Below the pieces are notes generated by a model. The model was not told the DNA's origin and ran no database searches. It saw only the letters and a program-made list of their open reading frames with translations. From the IMG/VR virus record IMGVR_UViG_3300010413_000011, positions 28,701 to 92,700 of that record: a stretch of DNA of 64,000 nucleotides. One strand, written 5' to 3'. Made by a program: the position numbers and the translations under genes. The first letter of the stretch is position 1; each line of letters starts with the position of its first letter. Source of the stretch: a virus. Below, piece by piece: positions 8,516-64,000 of the stretch.

Positions 8516-9029
8516 CAAAGTAATAGACTTTATAGAAACTGATTTACCAAGGACCTACTATCCCGAAGGTGGGGTCTCTCCTGAACAATTACAACCGAAC
8601 GGAGTCGACTGTCGTTTATTTTTTGTAAGGAGAGTCGACCCGGATCGTATTATGATATTTCGTAAAAATGAGAAGGATGTACCAGAGCTGGAGATGGTCG
8701 AACCTATAATCCATAGGTCCTTTCATGAGCGCGACAAACAACACGCCTTTTTCAATTTGGAACCTGGGGCCTATAATTTTGAAATGGCCGAACGAATAAA
8801 AGTTCCTCAAGGTATTGCGGCAATGTTCTTTGGTCGGAGTACCCTTAACCGAAACGGAATACTCCTTTTGTCGTCGGTCTATGATACGGGTTATGACGGT
8901 AGAATAGGAGGGACGGCGTATGTCTGGCGGCGGATACAAATAGAAATGTTTGTTCGAGTCGGACAAATTGTTTGTTGGGAAGCTCACGAAACGAAGGAGT
9001 ATGACGGTCAATATGGCGACGGAAAGTAA
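8499..9029 (+). CDS. dCTP deaminase/dUTPase-family protein
   Basis: A 176-aa beta-barrel nucleotide hydrolase. It has QPNGVDCR, FFGRSTLNRNGI, YDTGYDGRIGG and a C-terminal GQIVCWEA, all in the order of Dcd/Dut trimers. Such enzymes make dUMP from dCTP or dUTP and feed thymidylate synthesis; ThyX lies 11 kb downstream. The ATG at 8499 is preferred over a TTG at 8475 because GGAG sits 7 nt before it. It overlaps the TGT-like gene by 17 bp. Deaminase and dUTPase cannot be told apart with certainty. Confidence 0.85.
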   Translation: MILPGNKVIDFIETDLPRTYYPEGGVSPEQLQPNGVDCRLFFVRRVDPDRIMIFRKNEKDVPELEMVEPIIHRSFHERDKQHAFFNLEPGAYNFEMAERIKVPQGIAAMFFGRSTLNRNGILLLSSVYDTGYDGRIGGTAYVWRRIQIEMFVRVGQIVCWEAHETKEYDGQYGDGK

Positions 9030-11613
9030 ATGGCATAAGACTTCAATCGATCTTACTAGAAGTAAGCAGGGTCGTAAGACCTGTTTGAAGTGTCCTTGGT
9101 TTAAAAAGTTCGAGCAGGGAAAAACCGATTCGATCAACTTTTGTGTTGGCGGATACGGTTTAGTACCTGCCGATGTAATGATTGTTGGTGAGGCCCCGGG
9201 TTGGCCCGAGGCTAATGCGCGACCTCATCAACTTCATCCTTTCATGGGAGAGGATTCCTATATATTAGATTTCCTATTAAAAAAAGCAGGACTATCTCGT
9301 CGACAATTCTATATAACTAACGCTATCAAATGCAAACCTCTTCAATATGGCAAAGTCCCGATCGATATTGTTAACCGTTGTGCCTCACATCTTTGGTACG
9401 AAATAGAAATGGTTCAACCTAAATTAATAATTGCTCTAGGTGCTGACGCTCTCAAAGCCTTGACAGGTAGACCATTTTCGATAACACAGGAAAGAGGATT
9501 CAGGCGAACGTTTAGTGACTTCGTCAATTTAGAGAGAATAGGACTAGCTGAATCTAATTGGTCGGATCTCGAGGACGATTTCGGAGACATTTGGGTTTAT
9601 CCGATGAGACATCCTCATTTACTTTATAAAGATCCTAGATGGTTATCTACTTTTAAGTTCGACTTTAAAGAAATAAAACGGTTGATGAGAAAAGGATTTC
9701 CCGACCATAACGAACCACCTAAGATTAAAGTTACCGATACTCTAGAACGTTTCGAAGAATTCTATAAGGCGATTCAGAAGGCACCGGCTTACTCGGTCGA
9801 TACTGAAACGACCTCCACTAGTATGATTGATGCCAAAGCTCTCTGTATCTCCTTTTCATGGGGTAGAAAAAATACCTGGGTCGTACCACTGAGGGGCCAA
9901 GGAGGAAAAAGATTTTGGCAATCTGGTGCCGATGAAATTATTCGGAAGGACCTAAAACAAATTTTTAAGGAGAAAAATATTTATCGTATTGCTCAAAATT
10001 TTAAATTTGATTATAACGTTCTCCGGAAGGAAGGATTCGGTGAGGTTTATTTTGAGTTCGACACAATGACTGCTCATCACGTTATCGACGAGACCGGTCC
10101 TTACGATTTAGAAAATATTGCCAACTTTTACGGACTCGACCTTGGTTATTGGCCAGATTCGATTTGGAAATATACTCCTCGGAATAAAAAAGCTCAGTTT
10201 GCTGACATTCCAAATAAGATTCTCTGGCAATATACCGGAGTTGACGCGTGGACTACTTGGGAACTAGGTAAGCCGAACGGTGGTAGAGTTAGGACTGAAT
10301 TAGAGAAGAACCCTAATTTAGTTCGACTGGTTAAAGAAGTTACCTTCCCACTTTCTTATCCGTTAGCAGATATGGAATACTATGGAGTCAAGTTAAACCT
10401 AGATCGAATTGGGAAATTGGAAAAATTATATCAGAAAAAATTGGATATGATAACTGGTAGACTCCGCGTACTAGCGAATAAAGAAGATTTCAATCCCTTT
10501 TCTCCCGATCAAGTTATAGAATTACTATTCAATAAGTTGAAGATGACTACTAGAGGACTAACACCTGGTCGCAAACCAAAGACCGATGCCGATGTACTAG
10601 AGATAATGTTAAGAGAGGAACGGTCGCCCAAAAAGAGAACGATCCTTCGTCTCATAATTTTAGCTCGAAGTTACAGAGCAACAATTTCTAGAGAATTACA
10701 AGGGCTCCGAAAATTGGCTCCAGACGGAAATATAAGAACGACCTATTTGATTCCAGGAACCAGAACTGGTCGTCTCTCTTCAATAGGTCCCGACTTACAA
10801 AATGTCAAACGCGGTCCTGAAATCAGAAATTGTTTTACAGTAGAAGAGGACTCATTATTTGGAGGCGGTGACTACAAGGCGATAGAACTTCGACAAGCAG
10901 CGTTGTTAAGTGGTGACCCGGAGATGTTAGATATCTTTGAGAAGGGTATAGATTTTCATACAGTCACGACAGCTCGAGTTCGTAAAATACCAGAGGAGGA
11001 AGTTACCAAAGAACAGAGAGCACGAGGAAAAGCGGTTGTGTTCGGTGGAATAATGTATGGTAGATCGATTCAAACAATGGCCGACGAATATGATTTACCA
11101 TACGAAGAAGTAGAAGATATGATGGATGGAATAGCCGAGTTGTACCATGTATTCATGAAATGGCGTGAAAGCAATGTACGAGAGGCGAAAGAAAAGTTTT
11201 ATTTGGAAACGGCTTTTTGGAAACGGACTAGACATTTCCCTGCTTTCGAGATGATCGCGGATAGTAGATTGGCTAAGGTTCAGAGATTAAGGAATCAGTT
11301 AGGTCGCGAATTCAAACAGACGGTAGAGAAAACTGTTCGAGAATGTTACAATTATAGGATTTCCTCGCCGGCTGCCGATTGGGTTAATAAAGGAATTATT
11401 AGGCTTCATACTCGACTTCGCGAAGAGAATATGAAAACCTATTGTTTAATGCAAGTTCATGACGCGCTGTATTTGAGAGTATTTAAAAAAGAAGTTTTAT
11501 TCGTTAAACAGTTGATTAAAGAGGAAATGGAAACCACCTTGAGGTATAAAGGCAATAGACTTAAATTAGAATTTGATACTGAAATGGGAAGGTGTTGGGA
11601 TGAAAAAGAGTGA
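9001..11613 (+). CDS. DNA polymerase I family with N-terminal uracil-DNA glycosylase domain
   Basis: About 870 aa; a start at 9013 is equally possible. Residues 1-230 form a family-4-type UDG domain: CLKCPW, GEAPGWPEA, ITNAIKCKP and MRHPHLL, with cysteines suited to a 4Fe-4S cluster. Then comes a 3'-5' exonuclease with SVDTETT (about 263), NFKFDYNVL and YTGVD. The polymerase has motif A GDYKAIELRQ (about 622), O-helix RARGKAVVFGGIMYG (about 672) and motif C QVHDALYL (about 816). Motif C carries HDA where HDE is usual. UDG-polymerase fusions are known in some phages (SPO1 type). This should be the replicative polymerase. Confidence 0.93.
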   Translation: MTVNMATESKWHKTSIDLTRSKQGRKTCLKCPWFKKFEQGKTDSINFCVGGYGLVPADVMIVGEAPGWPEANARPHQLHPFMGEDSYILDFLLKKAGLSRRQFYITNAIKCKPLQYGKVPIDIVNRCASHLWYEIEMVQPKLIIALGADALKALTGRPFSITQERGFRRTFSDFVNLERIGLAESNWSDLEDDFGDIWVYPMRHPHLLYKDPRWLSTFKFDFKEIKRLMRKGFPDHNEPPKIKVTDTLERFEEFYKAIQKAPAYSVDTETTSTSMIDAKALCISFSWGRKNTWVVPLRGQGGKRFWQSGADEIIRKDLKQIFKEKNIYRIAQNFKFDYNVLRKEGFGEVYFEFDTMTAHHVIDETGPYDLENIANFYGLDLGYWPDSIWKYTPRNKKAQFADIPNKILWQYTGVDAWTTWELGKPNGGRVRTELEKNPNLVRLVKEVTFPLSYPLADMEYYGVKLNLDRIGKLEKLYQKKLDMITGRLRVLANKEDFNPFSPDQVIELLFNKLKMTTRGLTPGRKPKTDADVLEIMLREERSPKKRTILRLIILARSYRATISRELQGLRKLAPDGNIRTTYLIPGTRTGRLSSIGPDLQNVKRGPEIRNCFTVEEDSLFGGGDYKAIELRQAALLSGDPEMLDIFEKGIDFHTVTTARVRKIPEEEVTKEQRARGKAVVFGGIMYGRSIQTMADEYDLPYEEVEDMMDGIAELYHVFMKWRESNVREAKEKFYLETAFWKRTRHFPAFEMIADSRLAKVQRLRNQLGREFKQTVEKTVRECYNYRISSPAADWVNKGIIRLHTRLREENMKTYCLMQVHDALYLRVFKKEVLFVKQLIKEEMETTLRYKGNRLKLEFDTEMGRCWDEKE

Positions 11614-13872: not shown

Positions 13873-14850
13873 ATGTATGGTTATCAAATTTATCTGACCC
13901 ACGGCTGTAATCTGCGGTGTCGGCAATGTGGTGTCTGGAGGGCCAAATCGATCGGTCGGGAAAAACAATGGACCGAATGGGCAGCTATCCTACCGACCAT
14001 GGTCCAGGTTTTCGAGAAAACATTTCATCGGAAACCAGCGTTCAAATTGATGGGAGGCGAACCAACAATTTATCCGGGTTTCGAAGAAGTTTGTAGAGCA
14101 ATTAAAACACTCGGTTGTAATATTTCTGTTCTGTCGAATGTTAGTAAAACCTGGCAGTGGGAAATGTTGACTCGAGTTTTGGGAAAAGGGGATTCAATTT
14201 TCGTTTCAATGGATTTCTTTCCGAATAGAAGGAAACAATATGAGATGAGATCCGATCCGGCAGAAGAGAAGGCTTTTGCTGCCCTCCATTTCATCGAGAC
14301 CTTTCCCGACAACCAAACCGATTTCGAGGTCGGCGTAAATATTACGGTATCTTCGGATACCTTGCCTAGATTATCTGGCCTTATTGATTGTTTGGTTCAG
14401 TTGAACGCTAAGATGAATATTTGTCTTCGGCAAGGCAGCGAACCGAATGAGGACGAACTCTACCACGTTCTTAGGGCACCGAATCGAACTGGCAATTTAA
14501 ACCAGGAGGAGGTCGACCAGTTAGTCAAAATTATGCTATCCGACTTATTGCCAGTTCCAGATCTTTTTCTCGGATCAAAGGAATACATTAGGATAATTCA
14601 GGTTCACGGAGCGAATAACGATTGGCATTGTAGAGATCAACTCCACCTTCCGTATATTTATTTGGATTGCGATGGTTCGGTAATGGCGTGTCCAGACGTC
14701 GCCTTACCAGATCCTCAGGTTTTACCTTTAGCGAGTCCGACTCCTTTTGTTTGGACCGAGAGGATGTTGAAGACCTATCGTGCCAAATGTTGTGGCTGTA
14801 CTATTTCGTCAGCGATGACCGATGTTGTCGCAGCACTCTGGGAGAAATAA
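13873..14850 (+). CDS. Radical SAM enzyme with C-terminal cysteine-rich extension
   Basis: A 325-aa protein. CNLRCRQC (Cys12, 16, 19) is the CX3CX2C motif that binds the SAM-cleaving 4Fe-4S cluster, and LMGGEPT near 61 is the GGE motif. C-terminal cysteines (WHCRDQ, MACPD, KCCGC) resemble a SPASM/twitch domain with an auxiliary cluster. The ATG at 13873 follows AGGGGG; a GTG lies 6 nt upstream. It is followed one base later by the AOR homologue, so they are probably co-translated and work together. It lacks the usual QueE start and length, so 7-carboxy-7-deazaguanine synthase is unlikely. Substrate unknown. Confidence 0.85.
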   Translation: MYGYQIYLTHGCNLRCRQCGVWRAKSIGREKQWTEWAAILPTMVQVFEKTFHRKPAFKLMGGEPTIYPGFEEVCRAIKTLGCNISVLSNVSKTWQWEMLTRVLGKGDSIFVSMDFFPNRRKQYEMRSDPAEEKAFAALHFIETFPDNQTDFEVGVNITVSSDTLPRLSGLIDCLVQLNAKMNICLRQGSEPNEDELYHVLRAPNRTGNLNQEEVDQLVKIMLSDLLPVPDLFLGSKEYIRIIQVHGANNDWHCRDQLHLPYIYLDCDGSVMACPDVALPDPQVLPLASPTPFVWTERMLKTYRAKCCGCTISSAMTDVVAALWEK

Positions 14851-14851
14851 A

Positions 14852-16762
14852 ATGATACTTTCTGCTCCTAAAATTGCCCATATTGGCTTGGACAATCGAG
14901 TTTACCAAACTCATTGCCTTCATCCGAAAAATTTTTTACAATTTTTGGGAGGGCGAGGATTGAACAGTCATCTGACTTTTCAAAACCGCTCTATTAATTT
15001 CCCGATGGTTTTTATTACTCCAGGGTTGTTGACTGGAACTCTGTGTCCATCGTCGTCTCGCTGTACTATTGGTACTAATATATCACCCTCTTTAGGAAGA
15101 TGGGCTGATGGGAATCTCGGAGGATTTTTTGGAGCTGAACTAAGAAGAGCAGGTTGGAATCAAATTTGGTTAGAAGGTATTTCCGAAAAACCTATTTTAA
15201 TATATATTGAAAACCAAAAAATAAAAAGTGTTGACGCTGGTAATCTTTGGGGACTCGGAGTTCATGACACAACTGAGAGAATCCGAGAAGAGTTTGGGCC
15301 GGACGCTCAGTCTCTTGTAATCGGGCCGGCCGGAGAAACCCAGGTCGCGTACGCCTGCGTTATGTCGGGCGATAGAGCGGCAGGAGGAGGCGGTATTGGT
15401 GCCGTCCTCGGGAAAATGAAAGTCAAGGCGATCGTTGTTCGGGGAACTAGAGGTCTTGAACCTGCCCAACCCGAGGAGTTTATGGACGCTTGTCTGGCGG
15501 CTCATAAACAAGTTCGATCGAATCCTTTGTTCGGTGAGTTTTCACAATCTGGTACTTCAATTATTACATCCATTTATAAAGGAGTCAAAGCACTACCGGT
15601 TAATTATTGGGATAAAGGAGATTCGCCACACGCTTACAAATTCGAACCAGGAAATTTGAAGACGAAAGTTGTAAAAAGTCGAGCTTGCTATGGTTGTTCG
15701 ATTCATTGCTCTCATGAACTTACTTTCGGGTTCGAAGGGGTAGAGTACGAGGCGTTGAACGGGCTCGGTCTTAAAATTGGAATCACCGATCTAGACGAAT
15801 GCCTTCGTTTGATAAAATGGTTCAACAACCTGGGTCTCGATGTAGTCCAGACCTCTGGCGTTCTAGGTATGTTGATGAAAATGACCGAAGATGGCTTCGC
15901 GATGAATATGGATCGAATTAAATTTGGAGATGCTGAGGCTATTTGGACGCGAGTTGCTAGTTGGATGGATAGTAGAAGAAGAGATCTCAGTTTTTGGAAT
16001 GGTCTTGACGCCGGGTTCGAAAGATATTCTGAGATATTTCCTCCAGGTCCTGACGGAAATAAGGGCGATGTTCTTAAACGATTCCGTCGAAAGTATTCGG
16101 TCGATATTAAAAATTCAATGCCACCCAGCCTAGACTTCAGGGTTCCAGAAAACTTTGCGGCTACTATTGCTTGTATGACGGCTACTCGAGGCGCTGACCA
16201 TCTTAGAAGTTTGGCACCGATTGAGGCCTACGGTCAGTGGTACGGGAGAGAGGATCTCGAGGCGATGGCTATTCATTTTGGAATACCATCTGATATTATG
16301 AAAGAATGGTTGGACCTGGACGGGTTCGATCCTAAAATAAATTCGAAAAGTATAAGAGGAAAGGTTGCTATCATTTCTTACTTTCAAGATCAAAATGCTG
16401 TGACCGATGCCCTGGGTCTTTGTCGATTCGCCTCAAGTTGGAGAATGGGAGTCGGCCTCGAGTTGATGGCGGAGATGGTTTCGACTTTTCTTGGTATAGA
16501 TATGAACTGGTGTGGCCTGCGAGCAGTGGGCCAGAGGATAACCGTCTTAGAAAGATATCTGAACTCGAAAGTGTACGGCATGAATAAGTTCAGTGATTAT
16601 CCTCCCGAGAAATTTTTCGTAGAGCCTTTGAATGGGAGGAATCAACTCTCACATCATGACGTAAGATCAGCCCGCGATCAGTTCTATGAGTATAACGGAT
16701 ATGACGAGCAGGGATGTCCGACACCGGATACTTTTGAAAAATTAGGATTGGTTGTCAAATGA
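14852..16762 (+). CDS. Aldehyde:ferredoxin oxidoreductase (W/Mo) homologue
   Basis: A 636-aa AOR-family protein, close to the usual length of about 600. The N-domain has GGRGLNSH, TPGLLTGT, LGGFFGAELRRAGW and GDRAAGGGGIGAVLGKMKVKAI. CYGCSIHC (about 280-287) and DALGLCRF (Cys about 523) supply the four 4Fe-4S cysteines, and RGADHLR is the usual active-site stretch. AOR enzymes use a tungsto- or molybdo-bispyranopterin to interconvert aldehydes and carboxylic acids with ferredoxin as electron partner. Pyranopterin synthesis genes are not in the window, so the host would supply the cofactor. The next gene is a polyferredoxin with an ATGA overlap. Confidence 0.92.
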   Translation: MILSAPKIAHIGLDNRVYQTHCLHPKNFLQFLGGRGLNSHLTFQNRSINFPMVFITPGLLTGTLCPSSSRCTIGTNISPSLGRWADGNLGGFFGAELRRAGWNQIWLEGISEKPILIYIENQKIKSVDAGNLWGLGVHDTTERIREEFGPDAQSLVIGPAGETQVAYACVMSGDRAAGGGGIGAVLGKMKVKAIVVRGTRGLEPAQPEEFMDACLAAHKQVRSNPLFGEFSQSGTSIITSIYKGVKALPVNYWDKGDSPHAYKFEPGNLKTKVVKSRACYGCSIHCSHELTFGFEGVEYEALNGLGLKIGITDLDECLRLIKWFNNLGLDVVQTSGVLGMLMKMTEDGFAMNMDRIKFGDAEAIWTRVASWMDSRRRDLSFWNGLDAGFERYSEIFPPGPDGNKGDVLKRFRRKYSVDIKNSMPPSLDFRVPENFAATIACMTATRGADHLRSLAPIEAYGQWYGREDLEAMAIHFGIPSDIMKEWLDLDGFDPKINSKSIRGKVAIISYFQDQNAVTDALGLCRFASSWRMGVGLELMAEMVSTFLGIDMNWCGLRAVGQRITVLERYLNSKVYGMNKFSDYPPEKFFVEPLNGRNQLSHHDVRSARDQFYEYNGYDEQGCPTPDTFEKLGLVVK

Positions 16763-17679: not shown

Positions 17680-19257
17680 ATGAAATGGAATGAAGGAATC
17701 TTTAAGGCAAGAGAATTTCCAGACGAGCCGTTGAGTATGTTTTCTTGCCTAGCGGAATTGTGTAATTCGCAACCATCGGTCCCCTGGAATTATGCTGGTC
17801 GAATGATTCGAGTAACCGAAAAAGTTTCGATCGACTACGAGATAATGAAATTCGTTCGCGCTTCGGCTGACGATCCCTCTGGATTTAGCCCCGGGTTCAT
17901 ATTCGAGAATGTTTCGAGTGAGATGGCACCAGATCCGAAAACGACTCGATATCCAATCTCTGTTGTCGCTGGAATGTATGGAACCGAGGCACGAGTAAGT
18001 CGTATATTGGATTGGTGTTTAGGAACCAAAGAAAAATTCGACTTAAGTACTCCGGCCTGGCGAAAATATCAGCGAGCGTTGAACAGAACGTCACATGGCG
18101 TGGTTCGGATTTTTCCCGAAAGAGACGACTTAGGTCATGTATACGACATTCGATACGAACTCCAAGACCTTCCGATTTGTCTTCACAACGAAAGAGACGG
18201 AGGTCGATTCATCACCGGAGGTGTCCAGATCGTCTGGGATCCGGAATTCGAATGTTATGTCTCTGGTATTCACCGAATGAAGGTCATCGATAAAAATACT
18301 CTCGGGTGTTTGGCTACCGGCGAAAGAAGGATCGGTAGAGCGATAATGAAATGGCATGAACGAGGATTTAAGGCACCTGTTATTACATTAATAGGAGCCG
18401 CACCTTGCGACGTTTTCGCGTCTCAAGCCAAAGTACCTCATAACACGGATAAGTATGCTGTCGCAGATCGCTTCACACCCGGAAACGAGAAGAGAGATTT
18501 TTGTGGTTGGACTCCTTCCAAACATGCGAAATACGCTCCCGACCACTTACATATTATCCCTACAGATTCTGAAATTGTTATTTTGGGATTAGTTCCATTA
18601 GGCGAACCGAACAAACCAAACCTTATTAACGACAACCCGTTTGGGGAATTTCCTGGTACCTATTCCTTTTCGAATACTTCCGCGGCTTGGAGAGTAGAAG
18701 TAGAATATGTTATGACCAGATCCGACGCACCGATCTATCAAACCATGACCACCGGATTCCCTGTGCTCGAGGATCATATTCTTTGTGGCACGGCGAATGT
18801 TCCTTACCTCTTCGAAATTCTTCAAAGAGCCTGTTCAGAAGTGGTCGATATTAGCTTGGGAAAAGAAGGCAACTATGTTTTCGATGCTCACGTTTCCATT
18901 AAAAAGAGAATGTCTGGCGAAGCGCGCAATGTTATTTTAGCAGCGCTCTCGACCGTCACTATAAAAAGTGTTTGGATATACGACGACGACATCGACGTTC
19001 ATAATCCTCGTGACCGGCAGTTCGCATGGAACACGAGATACCAGCCTGCGACCGATACAATTATTATTGGCCATCCTTTGGTTGGTTCGAGTCTCGATCC
19101 ATCTTGTCCTGTCTTTCGGCACACGACTAAGGTAGGTTTTGACTGTACCAAACCTTTAGGTCAGGAGGATCGATACAAAAAGGCTTTGTGGCCAAAGGAT
19201 GAAATAGAAATCTATTCGAAAAAAGTACTCGATTTAATCGATAAGTGGGAGGACTAA
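17680..19257 (+). CDS. ubiD: UbiD-family prenyl-FMN-dependent (de)carboxylase
   Basis: A 525-aa protein, the usual UbiD length. Landmarks: SGIHRMKV (about 193-200; its Arg aligns with the catalytic Arg of Fdc1), GAAPCDVFAS, TDSEIVILG, NPFGEFPGTYS (about 317-327; catalytic Glu kept), SIKKRMSGEARNV, IYDDDIDVHNPRDRQFAW and TKVGFDCTKP. The usual metal-binding Asn before the Arg and the first Glu of the GxxGE region appear replaced (Val and Asp by my alignment), which may change substrate or cofactor geometry. UbiD enzymes reversibly remove CO2 from aromatic or unsaturated acids. GGAGAAG precedes the ATG. The UbiX that would make its cofactor is at 60385. Confidence 0.92.
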   Translation: MKWNEGIFKAREFPDEPLSMFSCLAELCNSQPSVPWNYAGRMIRVTEKVSIDYEIMKFVRASADDPSGFSPGFIFENVSSEMAPDPKTTRYPISVVAGMYGTEARVSRILDWCLGTKEKFDLSTPAWRKYQRALNRTSHGVVRIFPERDDLGHVYDIRYELQDLPICLHNERDGGRFITGGVQIVWDPEFECYVSGIHRMKVIDKNTLGCLATGERRIGRAIMKWHERGFKAPVITLIGAAPCDVFASQAKVPHNTDKYAVADRFTPGNEKRDFCGWTPSKHAKYAPDHLHIIPTDSEIVILGLVPLGEPNKPNLINDNPFGEFPGTYSFSNTSAAWRVEVEYVMTRSDAPIYQTMTTGFPVLEDHILCGTANVPYLFEILQRACSEVVDISLGKEGNYVFDAHVSIKKRMSGEARNVILAALSTVTIKSVWIYDDDIDVHNPRDRQFAWNTRYQPATDTIIIGHPLVGSSLDPSCPVFRHTTKVGFDCTKPLGQEDRYKKALWPKDEIEIYSKKVLDLIDKWED

Positions 19258-39242: not shown

Positions 39243-39584
39243 TCACACTCCGCCGCGATCAAATAATTCTATTGACCGAACTGTTCCACCTAATTCATTT
39301 TTAATTATGTTGAAGGCCTTCGTTGGTTCCTTACCAGGATCTAAATTGCAATTAAAGATATCAACCGAATATCCTTTTTTCTCGGGCCAAGTATGGATCG
39401 ATAAATGAGAGTCCGCCAATAATACTATGACGCTGACTCCTGGTCCGTATTCATGGGTAAGGGTCTCCAAAGGAGTTGAGACAACTTCGGCAGCCCTCCA
39501 ACACAGAGACTCAAGCCCAGCCACTTTGTCGAGCAGTTCGCTTTCAGAGTCAACAACATCCGCTAATAAAGTTCGTCCCCACAC
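39243..39584 (-). CDS. speD: S-adenosylmethionine decarboxylase-like protein (SpeD)
   Basis: A 113-aa proenzyme with a GTG start 8 nt after AGGAGG. LLADSHLSIHTWPEKKGYSVDIFNC is the region in which SpeD self-cleaves before the Ser to form the pyruvoyl group. The residue before that Ser is Asp where Glu is usual. Decarboxylated SAM is the aminopropyl donor for spermidine. Some phage SpeD homologues are reported to have become ornithine or arginine decarboxylases, so the substrate is open. Polyamines could neutralise packaged DNA or modify a base. Confidence 0.9.
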   Translation of the reverse strand: MWGRTLLADVVDSESELLDKVAGLESLCWRAAEVVSTPLETLTHEYGPGVSVIVLLADSHLSIHTWPEKKGYSVDIFNCNLDPGKEPTKAFNIIKNELGGTVRSIELFDRGGV

Positions 39585-43185: not shown

Positions 43186-44484
43186 TCATTTCCTCCAATA
43201 TTCTCGTAATGCTATTTGAGTACACCGTTCTTGAAATTGAGCACCGGTGTCACCCTCTCCGTCTTTCACAGTCGACTCGATTAAATATTCGCAATCTTCC
43301 AAAATTCTTTTTCCAATTTTTCTTCTACATGCTTCATCCAGCTCTTTCAATTCCAAAGAGACATCAATTCGTCCTGGTCGACTAGAAATATTAGTTCCAT
43401 TTTTTATTTCTGAAGTCCCCAAAGCGGGATCTAATGTTTCGATTCGGTTTGAAGTGACGACAGTAAAAATCCCATCAGATCTCTCTACGCCATCCAGACA
43501 ATTTAGAAGACTACCAAACGAAAGTTTGTCTTTCATACTATTTCCTTCATAGACATTCTTTCGTCCTTCAAAAACGTTATCGATGTCTTCCATTAAAACA
43601 ATACATGGAGTATTCCTCGCCGCCCTCCGCCATCCATCCAACAATTCTTCGTTTGTTAGAGTAGCCAAATCTAAAATGAAAATTGGAATATCTAAGGACT
43701 CTGCGATTGCTCGAGTCAAAGAAGTTTTTCCGGTTCCTGGTTTTCCGTAGAGCAACCATCCTCGTTTCCACGGAATACCTTTACTACGATACCATTGTTC
43801 ACTATCCTTCCATTTTTTGATATCGTCGATTACAACTTCGACATTTTTGGGAAACGCTAATATGTTTATTTCTTTATCTTTATAATCGAACTCGTATCCG
43901 AGATCGTCGAGTGTCCATTTAAGGAGTCGAGCTTCTCCGCGTTCGATAGCTCCTTCATCGCTGCTACTTGCTGTTTTATTGAGCGGCGATTCCTCATCTC
44001 TATTATTTCGACCAAAAAGATAAGAGATTCGGAATCTACGATTATTAAAAACCGATTTAGTTTTTTCATTATAAAAATCTAAAGCATCGATGATAAATTG
44101 ATCGGAATCTATCGTTCCTCGGATAACTGTAATTTTTAAATCCTCATCTCCTCCATTCTTATCAGTTTGTCTATGTATTAAAATAGGACGCCATTCGTCG
44201 AAAAAAATTAAAAGATTATTTCCAATCAATTCAAATCCGACTAATCGTCTCGTTTTAAGAGGACGAACATATCGGTCGTCGCATTGGTACGATCGATCGC
44301 CGATCGGAAGTCTCCAATAATTATTCCAACAATAAGACGATACAGCTTTCGCTGCATCATATCGGACTCCGAAAGTCACGAATACGAGACTCGTTATTTG
44401 ATTCAAGAGTTGTTTCGATCGCTGCCAAAACGTTCCTACGACTCCCGCAAACACTCCTGCTCCTAATAGTGTCGTCGTCTCCAT
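43186..44484 (-). CDS. BCS1-like AAA+ ATPase
   Basis: A 432-aa protein. An N-terminal hydrophobic stretch (LLGAGVFAGVVGTFW) precedes a BCS1-type domain, then the AAA+ core: LLYGKPGTGKTSL (Walker A), CIVLMEDIDNVF (Walker B), TSNRIETLDPAL (sensor 1) and SSRPGRIDVSLEL (arginine finger). Mitochondrial BCS1 moves folded Rieske protein across the inner membrane; bacterial and viral relatives are of unknown function. It may remodel a membrane-bound complex. AAGGAGG precedes the ATG. Confidence 0.85.
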   Translation of the reverse strand: METTTLLGAGVFAGVVGTFWQRSKQLLNQITSLVFVTFGVRYDAAKAVSSYCWNNYWRLPIGDRSYQCDDRYVRPLKTRRLVGFELIGNNLLIFFDEWRPILIHRQTDKNGGDEDLKITVIRGTIDSDQFIIDALDFYNEKTKSVFNNRRFRISYLFGRNNRDEESPLNKTASSSDEGAIERGEARLLKWTLDDLGYEFDYKDKEINILAFPKNVEVVIDDIKKWKDSEQWYRSKGIPWKRGWLLYGKPGTGKTSLTRAIAESLDIPIFILDLATLTNEELLDGWRRAARNTPCIVLMEDIDNVFEGRKNVYEGNSMKDKLSFGSLLNCLDGVERSDGIFTVVTSNRIETLDPALGTSEIKNGTNISSRPGRIDVSLELKELDEACRRKIGKRILEDCEYLIESTVKDGEGDTGAQFQERCTQIALREYWRK

Positions 44485-44920: not shown

Positions 44921-45292
44921 CTAAACTCTACACTCGCAATTTTTCAAAGTAAGTATCTGTTTTTGAACCGATGGAGTCTGCTCGACGCCATCGAACTTCG
45001 ATATATGAAACTTCTCATATGTAACAAAGTCAGACTGAACAATATGTCCAATAGCCTTTGTTTTGTCTATGGGAGAGCGATGATTAAAACCTCGCCTCTC
45101 CATCTCTTCGACAACCGAAGAGTGACGATCGTATAAAGAAGCTAATTTACCAAACCAACGCTTCACTTCTGGATGTCTCGAATAACCATCTCTCTGTTCA
45201 GCGACAACAGTAAAAATGGAATGGATCTCTCGGTGGAGACCGAGTAAGTGTTTGTCACAAAGAAGTGACGGGTGGATGTCCCAGACTCGCAT
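44921..45292 (-). CDS. Pyrimidine-dimer DNA glycosylase (T4 endonuclease V type)
   Basis: A 123-aa protein close to T4 DenV in size. MRVWDIHPSLLCDKHLLGLHREIH, GYSRHPEVKRW, LASLYDRHSSVVEEMERRGF and HRSP are family blocks of pyrimidine-dimer glycosylases. They excise UV photodimers and cut the abasic site. GGGGAG lies 7 nt before the ATG at 45292. In some phages relatives act on other modified bases. Confidence 0.85.
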   Translation of the reverse strand: MRVWDIHPSLLCDKHLLGLHREIHSIFTVVAEQRDGYSRHPEVKRWFGKLASLYDRHSSVVEEMERRGFNHRSPIDKTKAIGHIVQSDFVTYEKFHISKFDGVEQTPSVQKQILTLKNCECRV

Positions 45293-45294
45293 TT

Positions 45295-45507
45295 TTAAAC
45301 TCCCCAATTTCTTAAAAGTAGAGCAGCGATCGCAAACCCTAGACTACCACCAGCGACCACACCAAAGAAAAGACATTGCAACGCGAGTCGTCGGGCAGAC
45401 CTCAAGGGGACCATGGTCCCGTCTAGGTCATCGCCCGACGGTCTCTGACCGTCTCCTGAGGTCTCAAGGGAAACTTGACCGAGGTTATGGCGTTTAGTCT
45501 TTATCAT
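45295..45507 (-). CDS. Small single-pass membrane protein
   Basis: A 70-aa protein with a polar N-half and a C-terminal membrane segment (LALQCLFFGVVAGGSLGFAIAALLL). AGGAGG precedes the ATG. The tail-anchored topology would put the N-half in the cytoplasm. Confidence 0.65.
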   Translation of the reverse strand: MIKTKRHNLGQVSLETSGDGQRPSGDDLDGTMVPLRSARRLALQCLFFGVVAGGSLGFAIAALLLRNWGV

Positions 45508-47578: not shown

Positions 47579-47827
47579 TCAAACGACAAGTAAGTAAATT
47601 GCTATCGACAATAATAAAACCGACTCGAGCACATAGAGTCGATAGTGTTTCCAAAACTGAAGACGGTTAACAAAAACGATGTCTGAAATTTTTACCATGT
47701 CGTCCTCTCCGTCGATAACAAGAAAAGGTTCGACCCTTGTGTTATCGGGAAAAATTTCTGTATTTTCGCAAATCACTTTGTCACCAAGTACAACGACATT
47801 ACTTTTTACTTCCATTCCAATTTTCAT
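47579..47827 (-). CDS. Small tail-anchored membrane protein
   Basis: An 82-aa protein. A beta-rich first part (VVVLGDKVICENTEIF) leads to a C-terminal membrane segment (LYVLESVLLLSIAIYLLVV). GGGAGG precedes the ATG. It is the first gene of the leftward run and borders the repeat region; a promoter for the run should lie at 47.83-48.2 kb but I cannot point to a convincing one. Confidence 0.6.
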   Translation of the reverse strand: MKIGMEVKSNVVVLGDKVICENTEIFPDNTRVEPFLVIDGEDDMVKISDIVFVNRLQFWKHYRLYVLESVLLLSIAIYLLVV

Positions 47828-48720
47828 CCCTCGACCTCCCTTCATCAAACAAAAATAAAACTGTCGGGTGCCAAAACCCAACGCAATACCCAGACTGGAA
47901 ACAAACAAAACCCTAGGCGCCGTAACTCTCAACTCATTAATCGTTCCAGTCTCCAACTGCACAATAAAACAAAATAATAGCCATCAAAGTTCTACCCTAA
48001 GATTCGTAGGTCATCTAAAACAAAAATGATTCCAGTCAAACAAAAGTAAGTCAGGTACCCAAAGCAAAGAATCCCGACCACCGGAAACTGGAAAATATAT
48101 AGAAGTCGAATAGCGAAAAAGGGAGGCAGGGTAGAGGAGGGCAGAGAGAGTAGGTAGATATATAGTACTTGTATAGAGCCAGTAGTCACTAGTGCCTATT
48201 CCAGGAGCCCGGGAGCCGAACAATAAAGTATTCCTGCTTACTGCCGAGTCTATACGAACACGTATACTTCGACCACACTCGAATGGCGTGCGCCCGGCTG
48301 ACTTCGGTTCCATGCGAACCAGAGCGTATTGCAGTTGGAATACACTGGCAAGTTGCAGTATAGTCGGAGCTAGAGCGTATTGCAGTTCGAATACTCTCTA
48401 CCTTCGGTCTGCCCTTCCCTAGAGCCGCAGACTATAATTATCGATAATTAAATATACTGGATAGATAGTTGGAACGACAAGTACTGGAACTTGTGGACAA
48501 TGCATTATTAGCTAGTTTTGTTGTTCGTCTCTAGGGTGGATCTCGCGGTACTGGCAATATGGTGCAGTCTGGGTGGCGCCCCGGGCCTCGTGGATCCGTA
48601 CGATTGCACCTCTGCCATCTCCTCTTAAACTGCAGATCCTTGACAATTAACCAGAAGTAGATTTTGGAATACGAATACTGCAATTGCAGTTATTTACCTA
48701 CGAACTAAATTGGATATTCG
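47828..48720. other. Gene-free stretch, left flank of the repeat region
   Basis: No credible gene. Holds AGAGCGTATTGCAGTT twice (near 48321 and 48372), an inverted-looking pair of GACTGGA/TCCAGTC, and a perfect 16-bp palindrome TAATTATCGATAATTA near 48434-48449. A 25-bp copy of a sequence at 52345 lies at 48673-48697. Leftward promoter signals are expected but unclear. Confidence 0.6.
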
Positions 48721-49817
48721 AGGCGCATGAAACCGGAGTCATCTGGTCATTTCGTTGTTCGGGTTTCGATCTGAATCTGCAGTATTTTCTCGGATTCCGA
48801 TTTTTCGATTTTGGAATTGGCATAGATCCGGACCCATCTGCTCATTTTGTATAACTGACTCGAGTCAAGGTATGGACGAGTTTGTAAAATAAAAGGCGCA
48901 TGGAACCGGACCCAAATCGAAATTTTGTTGTTCTGCCTCCTATCTGATATTGCAGTATTTTCTCGGATTTCCATTTTCTAATAATTGAAATGGCATGGAT
49001 CCGGACTCATCTCGGACTTTTGTTGTTCTGACGGAAATAGTGGATATTGCAGTATTCCGATGAGTGGGAGAGTCCGGTTCTATGCCAAACCTATAATTCG
49101 GTATTTTGAGGGGTGAACTAAATTTACAAATAGAGGTCGCATAGAACCGGACTCTCCTTGAAATTTCGTTGTTCTGGTTCGCATCTGATCTTGCAGTGTT
49201 TTCTCGGATTTCCATTTTCTAATAATCCAAATGGCATGGAACCGGAGTCTCCTGGTCAAAACGTGTTGCTGCCGAATTGTGTCTCATTTGCACTCTACTG
49301 CATTCTTCGGTTTTATTAGAAGTCAACCGGAATTTGAGGAGATACGGGGAGACTCGAAGTCCTGCACAATTTGGCAGAACGAGATTTTGTAATATGAATA
49401 CTGCAATTCCACTAATTTAGTTGGTCGCAGATTGTCAAAATAAAGTCGCATAGAACCGGACCGAGATCAGAATTTCGTTGTTCTGGTTCGCATCTGATCT
49501 TGCAGTGTTTTCTCCGATTTGACTTTTTGGATTATTGAAATGGCATGGAACCGGACCCTCCCGGTCATTTTGTATAACTGACTCGACTCTCAAGAGTGGA
49601 GGAGATTTGGAAATTGAGGTCGCATAGAACTGGACTCTCCCGGTCATTTCGTTGTCCGGGTTCCTATCTGATATTGCAGTACTTTTTGCAATTTGGGATT
49701 TCTAATAATCCAAATGGCATGGAACCGGACCCAAACGGGCATTTCGTTGTTCTGACGGATATTGCTGAAATTGCAGTATTCTCATGACCAGATGAGTCCA
49801 CTTCTATGCGGGCCGGC

Positions 49818-50641
49818 TAAGTGCATCAATAACAGCATACTGCACTTCTTCCACAACTTACCCTATACTAATTATAGGTTTATCTTCGCCAAATCTCGAA
49901 CGATAAATGACCAGGAGATGCGGTAGGTACCGCACTTCGAGAAATCTATAAGTCGGCCTCCACCGAGATCCGCGACGATAACTTACGATTTCAACAAAAT
50001 GCGGTAGGTACCGCACCAGATAACAATTGTCGAGATCTCAAAAGACTTATTAAGTCAAATTCTCACTTTCTGCGGTAGGTACCGCAATCCGGTTTATCTG
50101 GATAGTCGGCCTCGGGCGAGAATGGTCACGATAACCCTAAAATTCCATCTCCTGCGGTACCTATGCGCCCAGATAACAATTGTCGTAATTTGAGAAGACT
50201 TGTCAAGTTAAATGACCGGAAAGGCCCGGAGGTACCGCATCCGTGGAATCTGGGTTGGCGACCTCCGGCGAGATCTCCCAAGTTTCCCATAGTTTTCTAT
50301 AAAATGCGGTAGGTATGCGACTAGATACCAATTGTCGTAATTTTTCAAGACTTGAGCGATAAAGTCTCATCTCCTGCGGTAGGTACCGCAGCCACCGAAA
50401 CTGCTCGCGTCACAATTGTCGAAATCCTCTGCGATTCACCCAAAGTCTAATTAAATGCGGTAGGTACCGCAATAGATTCGACTTTTGAGATCCCAAACAA
50501 ACTCTAGTGGATAAAGTGCACTTTTCTCGGAATCGCTGAAGTCTTCTAAAAAAACTGCACAAGATCCACCATAAGTTAAACCCATAATTAGTCCAGGGTA
50601 AATACCGATAGAAGTGCAGTATGCTGTTATTGATGCACTTA
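49818..50641. repeat. Long inverted repeats enclosing the 16-mer array
   Basis: 49818-49849 is a perfect 32-bp complement of 50610-50641. Similarity continues inward, imperfectly, to 49884 and 50575. The 824-bp block has no ORF. It resembles a palindrome-bounded origin or centromere module, or a small mobile element without a transposase. Confidence 0.8.
49919..50471. repeat. Array of eight 16-bp palindromic boxes at alternating 81/71-bp steps
   Basis: The box is TGCGGTAGGTACCGCA. Copies start at 49919, 50000, 50071, 50153, 50224, 50305, 50375 and 50456; those at 50153, 50224 and 50305 are degenerate. Steps are 81, 71, 82, 71, 81, 70, 81. Short intervals share AGATAACAATTGTCG. Three of the four long intervals share a GTCGGCCTC...CGAG-type core. 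So four copies of a unit of about 152 bp exist. A ninth near-match is at 51346. Iterons of a replication origin or partition site are likely. Confidence 0.85.
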
Positions 50642-51099
50642 CCTCCGAATGACAAAATGAGGAGATGACTCCGGTTCTATGCGAGGTCGGAATAAATAAA
50701 CTGCAATTCCAGTATATTAGTTGTGAACGAGATTTGGAAATTGAGGGTGCATAGAACCGGACCCATCTCGGAATTCTGTTGTTCTGCCTTCGATCTGTTC
50801 TTACAGTACTTTTTGCAATTTGGGATTTCTAATAATTCAAATGGCATAGATCCGGACTCTCCTGGTCATTTCGTTGTTCTGACGTAAGACTCCGAGAATG
50901 CAGTATTCGTATGCCGCGCTAGGTCCCTATCTATGCCAATCCAATATTCTAACACTGACCCAATCTCAAAAGTCAAGGCGCATAGAACCGGACTCAAATC
51001 GGAATTTCGTTGTCCGGGTTCCTATTTGATATTGCAGTACTTTTTGCAATTCCACTTTCTTGAAAAATAAAATGGCATGGAACCGGACCCATCTGGTCA

Positions 51100-52486
51100 A
51101 AACCTTGTTCTGCCGAATTGTCAAGAATCTGCAGTCTCCCGAGAGAGGCTCCTCCAACATACGTACGGATCCAGTGGTCTCGGGCCACCCGGTAGACTGC
51201 AGATCCTTAAGGCTCACTGCAGATCCGGTCATGGTCTGCAGTTCAAATCTAGCCAATACTGCATTGTCACAAGTATCAGTGGCTTAGGTATTATAATTAT
51301 ATTTAATTAATATCGACTGGATACTAATTATAAGTGCCAGTCTAGTCCGGTAGGTACCGCAGATCCTCGGACTATTCGAACTCCAATACAGTATCGTTGG
51401 ATATAGGAATAAAAATAATCTTCTGCCCAGGGCAGGCAGAGGAAATCAATAGTATACGAAGTCCGATCCAGTCCGACTCCAATCGAACAACCTAGAACAA
51501 AAGGTATCCAGGGCTAGGTCGCATAGTACCGGAGCTACATCGATCGTATCGTGTTGGCATTGGAAAAAGAATATTTTTCTTTTACTTCGAGGGTCGGCCC
51601 TGGAGACGAAGGCCCCTGGCAGGTTCTTTGGTCAAGGAATGGATCGCTATCTGTCGGGTTAGTTGCAAATTCCTACAATAGATTTTCTCGGAGATCGACT
51701 TGATAGAAAAATTTTTGCAATATATTTTCCAGGGGACAGGCCCGAGGACTAGTGACTGCCCTTCTATGTCTGCCCGAGGCACTACCGACTACTCTTTTTT
51801 TACTCGAGTCCCCAGGGCTCGGACAGTATTCGCCTGCCTATATGGGGTTATTCCGGATCCGGTTTAGAGTTTGTATTCCATTCCGTTCGGAGTATTCAGT
51901 TGTGAGTATTTATTCCTGCATATTGGAACTGGAATATGCAGTATTGCATAACTGGCTAGTGCAGGTTTGATGCGGGGTAGAGCCGAATGCAGTATTGGAA
52001 GGCCTATACAGTGAAATCTTAAAGAAGAACTTGTGGAATATCTGATAGTTACAGTAAAGTTTGTGGAATTAGGCGCTTATAAACTTGATTGGAAGTGCAG
52101 TGATTTACAGAGGGTACCCAATTCGACGAAGTCTCTTGCATTTTAAGGGGTTCTTTTGAGTCCGACTTGGCCCCTAAACTACTGGAATTGCAGTATCTGG
52201 GTTTGAGGGGCTAGGGGAGGGTGGCCTTTTTGTCGAATTAAGGGAGATCTCGAGTCTGGGGCGGGCGGCTCGGTCGCAGGTTTGGTCGATTGGAGGTCGG
52301 AGAGAGTCGCTGTTTGTCGCAATTTGGCTGAAATGGAAATACTGGAATACTGCAATTGCAGTTATTTACGTTCGAAATGGATTTTGAGGTCGACTGTAAG
52401 TTGCAGTGTTTCCAGTAGAACTTCGGTTTTTGGCCTTTTTGACCCTTTTGTCTAGGGGTACGGCTAAGATCCTATAAAACTTTTTT
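51100..52486. other. Gene-free right part of the repeat region
   Basis: No credible gene. Contains scattered CTGCAGATCC, a ninth array-type box (51346-51361), an AT-rich block near 51290-51332 like one near 48431, and at 52345-52369 an exact copy of 48673-48697. Remaining sequence shows no pattern I can explain. Confidence 0.55.
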
Positions 52487-52573
52487 CCAGTAAATAGTGG
52501 ATATTGCAGTATTCGTAGAAATCTCTTAAAAAGTTTTTATAAAAAAACACTGCAATATCCACTATTTGGTCAT
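52487..52573. repeat. 87-bp hairpin element, copy 1
   Basis: Outer arms AAATAGTGGATATTGCAGT (52492-52510) and its complement (52549-52567) give a 19-bp stem. An inner AAAAAGTTTTT can pair. Identical to 53488-53574. It lies upstream of a promoter. Confidence 0.85.
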
Positions 52574-52626
52574 CGAAAATCTGCACTATTTCGTTCATAA
52601 AAGTACTAGTTTACAAGTCGCCGAAT

Positions 52627-52654
52627 TTGTCTTTTTAAAAATGTATGCTACCAT
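52627..52654 (+). promoter_or_regulatory. Rightward promoter with near-zero leader
   Basis: TTGTCT (52627-52632), 16-bp spacer and TACCAT (52649-52654). The predicted start is near 52661, 3 nt before ATG 52664. It resembles the promoter at 53628 in motif and in lying downstream of the hairpin element. Confidence 0.5.
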
Positions 52655-52663
52655 AGCCTCATA

Positions 52664-52969
52664 ATGAAGAAGCAAGGAAATAAAAAAGAGGTCGAAAAAA
52701 AGGAGAGCAAAATGAAAAAGAGAGAAAGCAGCTATTATGGAATGATTTGTTGTCATTGTGGGACTCAGCAGGCGACAATGAAATTGGTCGAGGGTGAAAA
52801 TGTCAGATGTTATAATTGTGGTAAAGAGATCATGGCGGTCGATCATGTTAATAAGATGATTGATGGTCATGAGAAGGCGAGAGCAAAAGAAGAGAGGAAG
52901 AAGGCGGCTCAGATAAGGCGCATGAGAAAAAAGGCTGGAAAAGTTAAGAAAAGCAAGTTTGAGTGTTAA
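52664..52969 (+). CDS. Zinc-ribbon protein with two candidate starts
   Basis: 101 aa from ATG 52664, directly at the predicted transcript start; an 85-aa form starts at 52712 after AAAAAGGAG. CCHCGTQQ and RCYNCGKE form the zinc site, then a basic helix (RKKAAQIRRMRKKAGKVKK). Probably a nucleic-acid-binding protein at the head of the rightward run, perhaps a regulator. Confidence 0.65.
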   Translation: MKKQGNKKEVEKKESKMKKRESSYYGMICCHCGTQQATMKLVEGENVRCYNCGKEIMAVDHVNKMIDGHEKARAKEERKKAAQIRRMRKKAGKVKKSKFEC

Positions 52970-53333: not shown

Positions 53334-53487
53334 CCACTAATCCACTATATATAGAGCAGCCCGATATTTGGAGATACTGGAAAATACGAACAAAAAGATC
53401 TACTGCAAATTCGATTGGAACTTCCAATACTTCTGGTCGATTTTGGTCAAGGTCGAAAAATGGTCTATTCTCTCAAAAAAGATTTAT

Positions 53488-53574
53488 CCAGTAAATAGTG
53501 GATATTGCAGTATTCGTAGAAATCTCTTAAAAAGTTTTTATAAAAAAACACTGCAATATCCACTATTTGGTCAT
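53488..53574. repeat. 87-bp hairpin element, copy 2
   Basis: Exact copy of 52487-52573, 1,001 bp away in the same orientation. The 53289-53662 stretch has no gene: it holds the terminator, this element and the next promoter. Confidence 0.88.
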
Positions 53575-61608: not shown

Positions 61609-62274
61609 ATGAAATTCAGTAAAAATGATAAAGGTCTTCCACCCATCGATTATATGGCTCTCCGGCGGCTCGAAAGTCGGCTGGCTAATTGTCAAGGATG
61701 TGCGCTCTCCCACACGCGAACCAATCCTGTGTTGATGAGGAGCAATAGACTCGAGCAGGGTGGTATTCTACTTATAGGGGAGGCCCCAGGCCGGAATGAA
61801 GATGAAGTCGGGGTACCCTTTATTGGTAGGGCTGGACAAAGATTAAACAAAATTCTTTATAAGCATCAGGACGTTCCTTATCAAATTGCCAATGCAGTCT
61901 GTTGTCGTCCTCCGAAGAATCGAACTCCTGACGAATTTGAAGTTGAGACTTGTTTATTTCATTTAAGGCTCTTGATTTCTATTCTTCAACCTCGTATCCT
62001 AATATGCCTAGGACGAGTTGCTGCATTCTCTCTGTTCGCGTTATTTCATAGTCAAGCCAAATTTCAAGGCGACAGTATTAAATTGATAGGTCCGATTTCA
62101 GTAACACGGTCAGAAGTCAACGCGATCCAAATGAATGATAAAGTGATTCGGCATTGGTTGAGAACTTGGCATCCGTCATTCGTAATGAAACCTTGGAACA
62201 AGGATAAGTTCGGTCCTTATTTCGACGAGGATATAAATATTGCTTTCGATTATTGGAGAAGATGGTATGGCTAA
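61609..62274 (+). CDS. Stand-alone family-4 uracil-DNA glycosylase
   Basis: A 221-aa protein. CQGC near the start, ILLIGEAPGRNEDEVGVPFIGRAG, NAVCCRPPKNRTP, ETCLFH and TWHPS are family-4 UDG blocks, with four cysteines for a 4Fe-4S cluster. It removes uracil from DNA. This is a second UDG beside the domain fused to the polymerase. Overlaps the next gene by 8 bp. Confidence 0.92.
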   Translation: MKFSKNDKGLPPIDYMALRRLESRLANCQGCALSHTRTNPVLMRSNRLEQGGILLIGEAPGRNEDEVGVPFIGRAGQRLNKILYKHQDVPYQIANAVCCRPPKNRTPDEFEVETCLFHLRLLISILQPRILICLGRVAAFSLFALFHSQAKFQGDSIKLIGPISVTRSEVNAIQMNDKVIRHWLRTWHPSFVMKPWNKDKFGPYFDEDINIAFDYWRRWYG

Positions 62275-62980: not shown

Positions 62981-64000
62981 ATGGGGCGACGGCTCACTAA
63001 CTATCAACTCTCAACGAACGATGACTTGCCAAGCAGGTTATTGTTGGCGTACCGCACTAGGAATGAGTTACTTCGGCATCTTATTCTTCAACAAAAACGC
63101 GCTGACATTCTTTATCGAAAAATTCTCGGGCTTACTTTAAAACCATTTCATCTAACAATGATGAATCATAGCTTGGGCCGTAAAACCTCTCTTACGTTAG
63201 CACCCCGCGGATTCGGTAAGTCAACGATCTTAACCATTGCCTTTAACGTTTTTAAAATTCTTCAAAATCCTAACATTCGAATTCTAATAGCTTCAAAAAC
63301 CGATAAACAAGCTGAGAAATTTTTAAGGGAAATTAAAGCCTTCCTAAAGTTGCCTTCCTTGGTTGAGGTTTTCGGAGATCAGGTTGGAGAGAAATGGGAC
63401 ACAAGAGAGATAATCGTTCGCGGTCGAACTAGAATCGCCAAGGAACCAACGGTATCGACCGTCGGTGTGGCAGGTTCGGTTGTTGGTGGCCATTACGATA
63501 TAGTGATTAAGGATGACCTGGTGGAGGAACAAAACTCGAGGACTGAAACCCAACGAAAACAACTGTTAACCTGGTATCAAAAAGTTCTGGAACCTTGTAT
63601 CGAGCCTTGGGGAATCGATCAAACTGTTGGTACTCGTTATCACCCCGACGATCTTTACGGTCATCTTATTCGAACTCAATTTCGGAAGGCGAAGAAAAAA
63701 GGTTACCTTCGGATCGGGCCTTTTGATAAAGACGGAAATAGTATTTGGCCAGAGCGATATACAGTTGATTATTTAAAAAAGAAAAAAGGTCGAATCGGAA
63801 TTACAAATTTTATGTCTCAGTACCATAACGATACTAGTTTTATGGAGGGCGATTTCTTTTCAGCTGATGATTTTCTCTTCTACGATTTCCCACCACCGAA
63901 TCTGAAAGTATTCCAGGGAGTTGATCTAGCAATCAGGCAAACAGAGAAGGCAAGTCGGTTCGCAACAGTAACGATAGGAATCGATGAACCTAAAGAAGAT
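62981..64000 (+). CDS. Large terminase subunit, truncated by the window end
   Basis: 340 codons are visible and no stop occurs before 64000. The ATPase has APRGFGKSTI (Walker A) and YDIVIKDDLV (Walker B), and IRILIASKTDKQA and VGTRYHPDDL follow the family pattern. The nuclease domain begins with FQGVDLAI. It should pump DNA into proheads and cut concatemers. Start is ATG at the predicted transcript start; no SD. Confidence 0.95.
   Translation, partial: MGRRLTNYQLSTNDDLPSRLLLAYRTRNELLRHLILQQKRADILYRKILGLTLKPFHLTMMNHSLGRKTSLTLAPRGFGKSTILTIAFNVFKILQNPNIRILIASKTDKQAEKFLREIKAFLKLPSLVEVFGDQVGEKWDTREIIVRGRTRIAKEPTVSTVGVAGSVVGGHYDIVIKDDLVEEQNSRTETQRKQLLTWYQKVLEPCIEPWGIDQTVGTRYHPDDLYGHLIRTQFRKAKKKGYLRIGPFDKDGNSIWPERYTVDYLKKKKGRIGITNFMSQYHNDTSFMEGDFFSADDFLFYDFPPPNLKVFQGVDLAIRQTEKASRFATVTIGIDEPKED

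Follow-up and report, generated by a model that had tools for sequence, protein, structure and literature searches.

A gene-free region of nearly 5 kb with ordered repeat arrays in a 92.7-kb phage genome: a putative DNA control hub and replication origin

Repeat-bearing non-coding regions between divergent operons are known from the PLE satellites, in which such a region of 2.7 kb contains the replication origin (PMC7145576) and is sufficient for replication when RepA and the helper phage are present (PMC7145576; PMC7567579). The region considered here lies in a virus record of IMG/VR (IMGVR_UViG_3300010413_000011); the window analysed is the 64,000-nucleotide stretch at positions 28,701-92,700 of this 92,700-bp record, and coordinates are those of the window. 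Like the PLE of Vibrio cholerae, it combines a gene-free stretch (2.7-3 kb in PLE), several repeat families and divergent gene clusters, but it differs in that it belongs to a whole 92.7-kb phage, is larger, bears far more numerous and more regularly spaced repeats, and comes with no recognised RepA_N protein. PLE may be regarded as the closest known layout, in the sense of a resemblance of layout between uncompared sequences and not of membership.

Classical iterons are about 20 bp long, with a spacing of roughly two helical turns. The present region shares with the iteron-type origins of phages and plasmids the many direct copies of short motifs and the AT-rich stretches, but is built of composite 95- and 174-bp units with three motif classes, and Rep_3 is absent. 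It also resembles the giant phage non-coding RNAs GOLLD and ROOL (PMC12286853) in being a long phage stretch that lacks genes and could form much secondary structure; in contrast to these, it is about four times longer, has neither an Rfam match nor covariation support, and lies in a window that contains no tRNA genes. Palindromic sites in regular arrays recall the parS arrays of phage-plasmids as well, but no ParA or ParB family occurs in this genome. Indeed, a partition locus, one of the functions put forward in a preliminary description of this DNA, was not supported, as ParB_N and ParA-type (AAA_31) searches gave no match in the genome, with controls that did give matches.

Phages seldom yield 5% of their genome to gene-free DNA. 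Should the region be an origin and control hub, it would be an unusually elaborate one, and should it encode an RNA, this would rank among the largest structured RNAs of phages; on either reading, about 50,000 phage records contain no counterpart of the repeat system, and motif scans of 2.9 million viral contigs found none.

Extent and genomic context of the gene-free region

Genes were called with a simple, home-made caller, for which the long genes of the phage itself served as the training set and which gave the following landmarks.

47,579-47,827, minus strand: gene that opens the leftward early run, with an 82-aa product without family assignment (gene calling, RBS present)
47,828-52,711, no strand: gene-free region, flanked by the leftward and the rightward early run (gene calling, with shuffled sequence as the null for open frames)
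52,712-52,969, plus strand: first gene of the rightward early run, small, with a weak zinc-ribbon-like match (open frame from 52,664)
5,706-6,473, minus strand: candidate DNA-binding initiator or loader with an HTH-like N-terminus, directly upstream of DnaB/primase (weak Pfam HTH match)

The absence of genes over about 5 kb, as first described, was borne out, no credible gene being found from 47,828 to about 52,711. The largest gap left by gene calling in the 92.7-kb record measures 4,950 bp, and the next ones 810, 799 and 783 bp. Its longest open frame (128 aa) falls within the range of shuffled sequences (median 113, maximum 172, n=30), and protein coding in any frame was rejected, since the open frames of the gap are at chance level. 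Most of the next-largest gaps, of about 0.8 kb, have open frames that exceed the shuffle median, and these gaps are therefore probably missed genes for the most part. The leftward genes do stop at 47.8 kb, the edge at 47,827 being that of the 82-aa gene with its RBS. The rightward start, placed at 52.66 kb in the preliminary description, stands as regards the open frame, which begins at 52,664, but the start backed by an RBS (AAAAAGGAGAGCAAAATG) lies at 52,712. The divergent transcription point was likewise confirmed: this is the sole large divergent gap, with leftward genes before it and rightward genes after it. The observation is thus real, and the region is ordered and unusual in both size and regularity.

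The record itself is nearly complete, as the terminase gene is split across its ends and only about 8 codons are absent (the two pieces cover residues 78-401 and 410-533 when aligned to the terminase of a relative); no terminal repeat was seen in the 92.7 kb. The phage encodes its own replisome, with DnaB/primase, PolA fused to a uracil-DNA-glycosylase domain, SSB, an exonuclease, RecA, SbcC, SbcD and a RuvC-like resolvase, and its other genes include those for portal, protease, tail and glycosyltransferase. The tyrosine integrase family was not found in the genome, and we infer that the phage is probably virulent.

Architecture of the repeats

The features of the region are listed below; A, B and C denote the three motif families, and a position is given for each motif.

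48,377-48,666, plus strand: left outer inverted arm, 62% identical to the right arm over a 300-column alignment (self-blastn, E=1e-15)
51,098-51,389, minus strand: right outer inverted arm (self-blastn)
48,431-48,470, no strand: stretch of 80% AT within the left arm, which may be an unwinding site or a promoter
51,294-51,333, no strand: stretch of 85% AT within the right arm, at the corresponding place
48,722-48,875, plus strand: repeat unit 1 (A 48,724, C 48,773, A 48,819)
48,895-49,086, plus strand: repeat unit 2 (A 48,897, C 48,946, A 48,992, C 49,043, inverted A 49,071)
49,136-49,290, plus strand: repeat unit 3 (A 49,138, C 49,187, A 49,233)
49,445-49,599, plus strand: repeat unit 4 (A 49,447, C 49,496, A 49,542)
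49,619-49,810, plus strand: repeat unit 5 (A 49,621, C 49,670, A 49,716, C 49,767, inverted A 49,795)
50,746-50,937, plus strand: repeat unit 6 (A 50,748, C 50,797, A 50,843, C 50,894, weak inverted A 50,922)
50,977-51,130, plus strand: repeat unit 7 (A 50,979, C 51,028, A 51,074, C 51,125)
49,818-49,886, plus strand: left inner inverted arm, 69 bp, 86% (self-comparison)
50,573-50,641, minus strand: right inner inverted arm (self-comparison)
49,919-50,471, no strand: array of B palindromes, five perfect and three degenerate, spacing 81/71 bp (+/-1), at 49,919, 50,000, 50,071, 50,153, 50,224, 50,305, 50,375 and 50,456
51,346-51,361, no strand: ninth B site (13/14), within the right arm
51,422-51,440, minus strand: terminator-like hairpin (leftward) just outside the right arm (consensus match only)
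47,863-47,882, minus strand: hairpin resembling a terminator, immediately upstream of the first leftward gene (consensus match only)
52,492-52,567, no strand: near-perfect inverted repeat with two C sites

The repeats were reported from the outset as ordered, and self-comparison showed them to be real, with a best self-match at E=4e-77 and inverted arms at E=1e-15 and 3e-15. This best match within the region is a direct duplication of 451 bp with 72% identity; a second direct repeat extends over 432 bp at 71%, and there are others. The units are framed by inverted arms in two nested pairs, one of 300 and the other of 69 bp. Of the three 40-mers richest in AT within the region, two sit in the arms, at matching positions. 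Perfect 6-bp hairpin arms are about four times denser in the region than in the rest of the window.

All 20 copies of motif A (GCATRGAACCGGACYC) lie within the gene-free region, where 18 matches with at most two mismatches compare with 0.06 expected; in the motif scan, 19 of these 20 copies reached at least 18 bits, against 13 for the best of the 7 matches elsewhere in the 92.7 kb. Motif C (GATATTGCAGTATT) has 27 of its 48 scan matches in the gene-free region, and the only strong matches outside are the two found in a hairpin at 53.5 kb, where the inverted repeat at 52,492-52,567 recurs (53,493-53,568) inside a 98-bp stretch that is 97% identical. The seven units follow a common plan, with A at 0, C at 49 and A at 95, extended by a second C at 146 in four of them (units 2, 5, 6 and 7) and by an inverted A at 174 in three (units 2, 5 and 6). 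The A-to-A spacing is exactly 95 bp in every unit, and the alignment over 154 bp contains not a single gap or indel across the seven, at a mean identity of only about 67%; of 145 columns, 62 are invariant, and these form clusters (permutation p=0.0006). The inner array is composed of eight B palindromes, TGCGGTA-gg-TACCGCA, at spacings that alternate between 81 and 71 bp. With three motif families at exact spacings, the region is probably read by something with precision.

Putative function and rival readings

From these sequence features, we propose that the region may act in cis as the DNA control hub of this probably virulent phage, involved in early control and probably acting as replication origin, a reading that we regard as evenly poised between right and wrong. 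Among the functions put forward earlier, an origin or main control region is predicted to fit best, because arrays with fixed spacing lie between divergent early gene runs, the arms contain AT-rich stretches and the phage has its own replisome. From a mechanistic point of view, phage-encoded DNA-binding proteins would load onto the A, B and C arrays and build a nucleoprotein complex, which would open the DNA at an AT-rich arm and start replication with the phage's own DnaB/primase, SSB and PolA, and which would also regulate the divergent early promoters on both sides. The HTH-like protein encoded beside DnaB (5,706-6,473) is a candidate binder; its predicted structure is of low confidence (pLDDT 55), and the model gave no significant fold match. 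Such a region would most probably be an elaborate form of a known kind, the origin and control region, and not a category of its own.

Several features are those expected of an origin: direct repeats are clustered in a gene-free region between divergent operons, and AT-rich stretches of 80% and 85% are present, which alone are weak evidence. As for initiators, the Rep_3 family had no match in the phage genome, with controls that matched in two genomes, and RepA_N had none either, but the control genomes for this family were also without a match. GC-skew, which had been suggested as a check, yielded no independent evidence of an origin: the change of sign at the region follows gene direction, since genes in every block have a G-rich coding strand (skew 0.07-0.21) and the skew of the region itself is close to zero (0.03). 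It should be noted that an origin of 4.8 kb would be large. Both strands have strong fold energies, described below, which would be equally expected from a structured RNA and in this respect count against a hub.

Such an RNA, a giant structured non-coding molecule spanning 48,377-51,389 (about 3 kb), in which the long arms would close the structure and the units and the B array would form inner domains, is the main rival, which we consider possible but on the unlikely side. Large and abundant non-coding RNAs do occur in phages (PMC7567579; PMC12286853). The long non-coding RNAs evoked in the preliminary description find some support in the strong fold of the core on both strands: the structure predicted for 48,370-51,400, which includes the long-range arms, lies 11.6 (plus) and 20.3 (minus) standard deviations below shuffles, these being rough values from 12 shuffles per strand. 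However, any sequence with long inverted repeats must fold far below shuffles; most of the z derives from the inverted repeats as such, and the energies are about equal on the two strands (-1053 and -1062), as DNA-level inverted repeats give. Mild signals were obtained on both strands with alifold for the 450-nt duplicates (z -2.3 to -4.2), and for the inner repeats in one of two phasings only (z -3.5 and -2.7), but no fold was common to all seven units (z -1.2 and -0.2). The inner arms pair at 59 of 69 positions, with 5 further pairs as G-U on the minus strand, and their mismatches (0 G-U against 5 A-C on the plus strand) lean slightly toward a minus-strand RNA; the mismatches of the outer arms are balanced (18 G-U against 14 A-C on the plus strand) and indicate no strand preference. 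Nor did the Rfam covariance-model search of the region give any match, GOLLD and ROOL included, or a comparison of the paralogous copies reveal partner-specific covariation. On balance, arrays of putative protein-binding DNA sites are favoured over a giant RNA, in line with the balanced mismatches, the lack of a common unit fold and the inverted A boxes, which match the overall consensus about as well as they match their best forward partner. An inverted box that pairs with one particular forward box would be predicted to share the peculiarities of that box, and none of this was seen, in keeping with sites and not with stems. That the core (48,377-51,389) is transcribed as an ornate, arm-closed RNA of about 3 kb, made of repeated modules and several times the size of GOLLD or ROOL, seems to us doubtful.

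The same binding sites could also belong to an operator or enhancer region devoted to early transcription only, without an origin, in which a regulator would time the two early runs. Runs of divergent small genes indeed flank the region on both sides, the palindromic B and C motifs resemble dimer sites, and the hairpin at 53.5 kb, within the rightward run, again contains C. Yet promoter-like matches in the region are no more than chance provides (12 found against 12.2 expected), a result that counts against the hub as well, and the number and layout of the sites go beyond the needs of a simple divergent promoter. We consider this restricted role improbable.

Very little speaks for decayed, duplicated mobile or repeat elements that are functionless at present: the nested direct and inverted duplications are of unequal age and have no counterpart in the relatives examined, but exact, indel-free spacing at about 33% divergence and clustered invariant columns indicate constraint, no integrase was found, and nothing similar was seen in the phage and plasmid collections. 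An assembly artefact, conceivable for a metagenomic contig that contains repeats, is hardly credible, as the repeats are diverged and not identical, the GC content fits the rest of the phage, ordinary phage genes flank the region and motif C is also found at 53.5 kb. An invertible or integrative element was considered as well and rejected, there being no tyrosine integrase and no coding segment between the inverted repeats.

Distant relatives of the phage

A blastn search of 50,697 phage and 72,556 plasmid records gave no match to the DNA of the region. Scans of 2.9 million viral contigs (IMG/VR) with motif patterns yielded either nothing or isolated single matches, and a motif scan of GTDB genomes gave three single matches only, both results being compatible with chance. 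Close kin were also sought with exact patterns of single proteins (AAA protein, portal and PolA), and none were found; RecA loci were rejected as kin, their source phages being without this portal as far as detected. As judged from these sequence comparisons, this is a phage type without a close relative in the collections searched.

The portal alignment led to 80 IMG/VR loci, which represent a distant family, and 13 full records and one partial contig (14 in total, 28-110 kb) were examined from these. These 14 distant relatives have 7-22 proteins in common with the phage, with aligned pairs that are mostly about 25-50% identical. Neither a gene-free stretch comparable to this one nor DNA resembling the region was seen in the 13 full records or in the partial contig; open frames above the shuffle median occur in most of the larger gaps of these relatives. 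The clearest true gap among the relatives, in the genome designated G036, measures 1.9 kb and bears duplicated short stretches.

Anaerobic-metabolism genes

The phage encodes a full-length aldehyde ferredoxin oxidoreductase of the tungsten enzyme family (14852-16762, + strand), which found no match among 50,697 phage records, while its closest plasmid matches showed an identity of only about 28%. This gene may be an auxiliary metabolic gene of a kind previously undescribed in phages. A UbiD-type decarboxylase (17680-19257, + strand) is encoded nearby, and a radical-SAM-like protein (13873-14850) accompanies both; the three make up a small anaerobic-metabolism module.

Early gene runs and the 98-bp repeat pair

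Two runs of genes for small proteins, several of which have weak zinc-ribbon-like matches, diverge from the gene-free region and are possibly host-takeover genes:
36.8-47.8 kb, - strand, leftward early run
52.7-64 kb, + strand, rightward early run

Early-run genes also include a SAM decarboxylase (39243-39584), a pyrimidine-dimer glycosylase (44921-45307) and, within the leftward run, an AAA+ ATPase (43186-44484, - strand), whose ATPase domain occupies the C-terminal half and whose top PHROG match is a family of unknown function.

A 98-bp repeat pair (52476-52573 and 53477-53574; 97% identity, copies 1,001 bp apart) encloses two small genes whose products match zinc-ribbon-like domains weakly. 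Both copies hold an inverted repeat of 76 bp that is close to perfect and carries two sites of motif C, a short repeat family of the gene-free region, and they are possible cassette boundaries.

Replication genes and record ends

A family A DNA polymerase carries a fused uracil-DNA-glycosylase domain (9013-11613, + strand), and a second uracil-DNA-glycosylase is encoded separately (61609-62274, + strand). The terminase gene is split across both record ends (window positions 62981-64000 and the record start) with about 8 codons absent, which means that the record holds almost the whole genome, opened within terminase.
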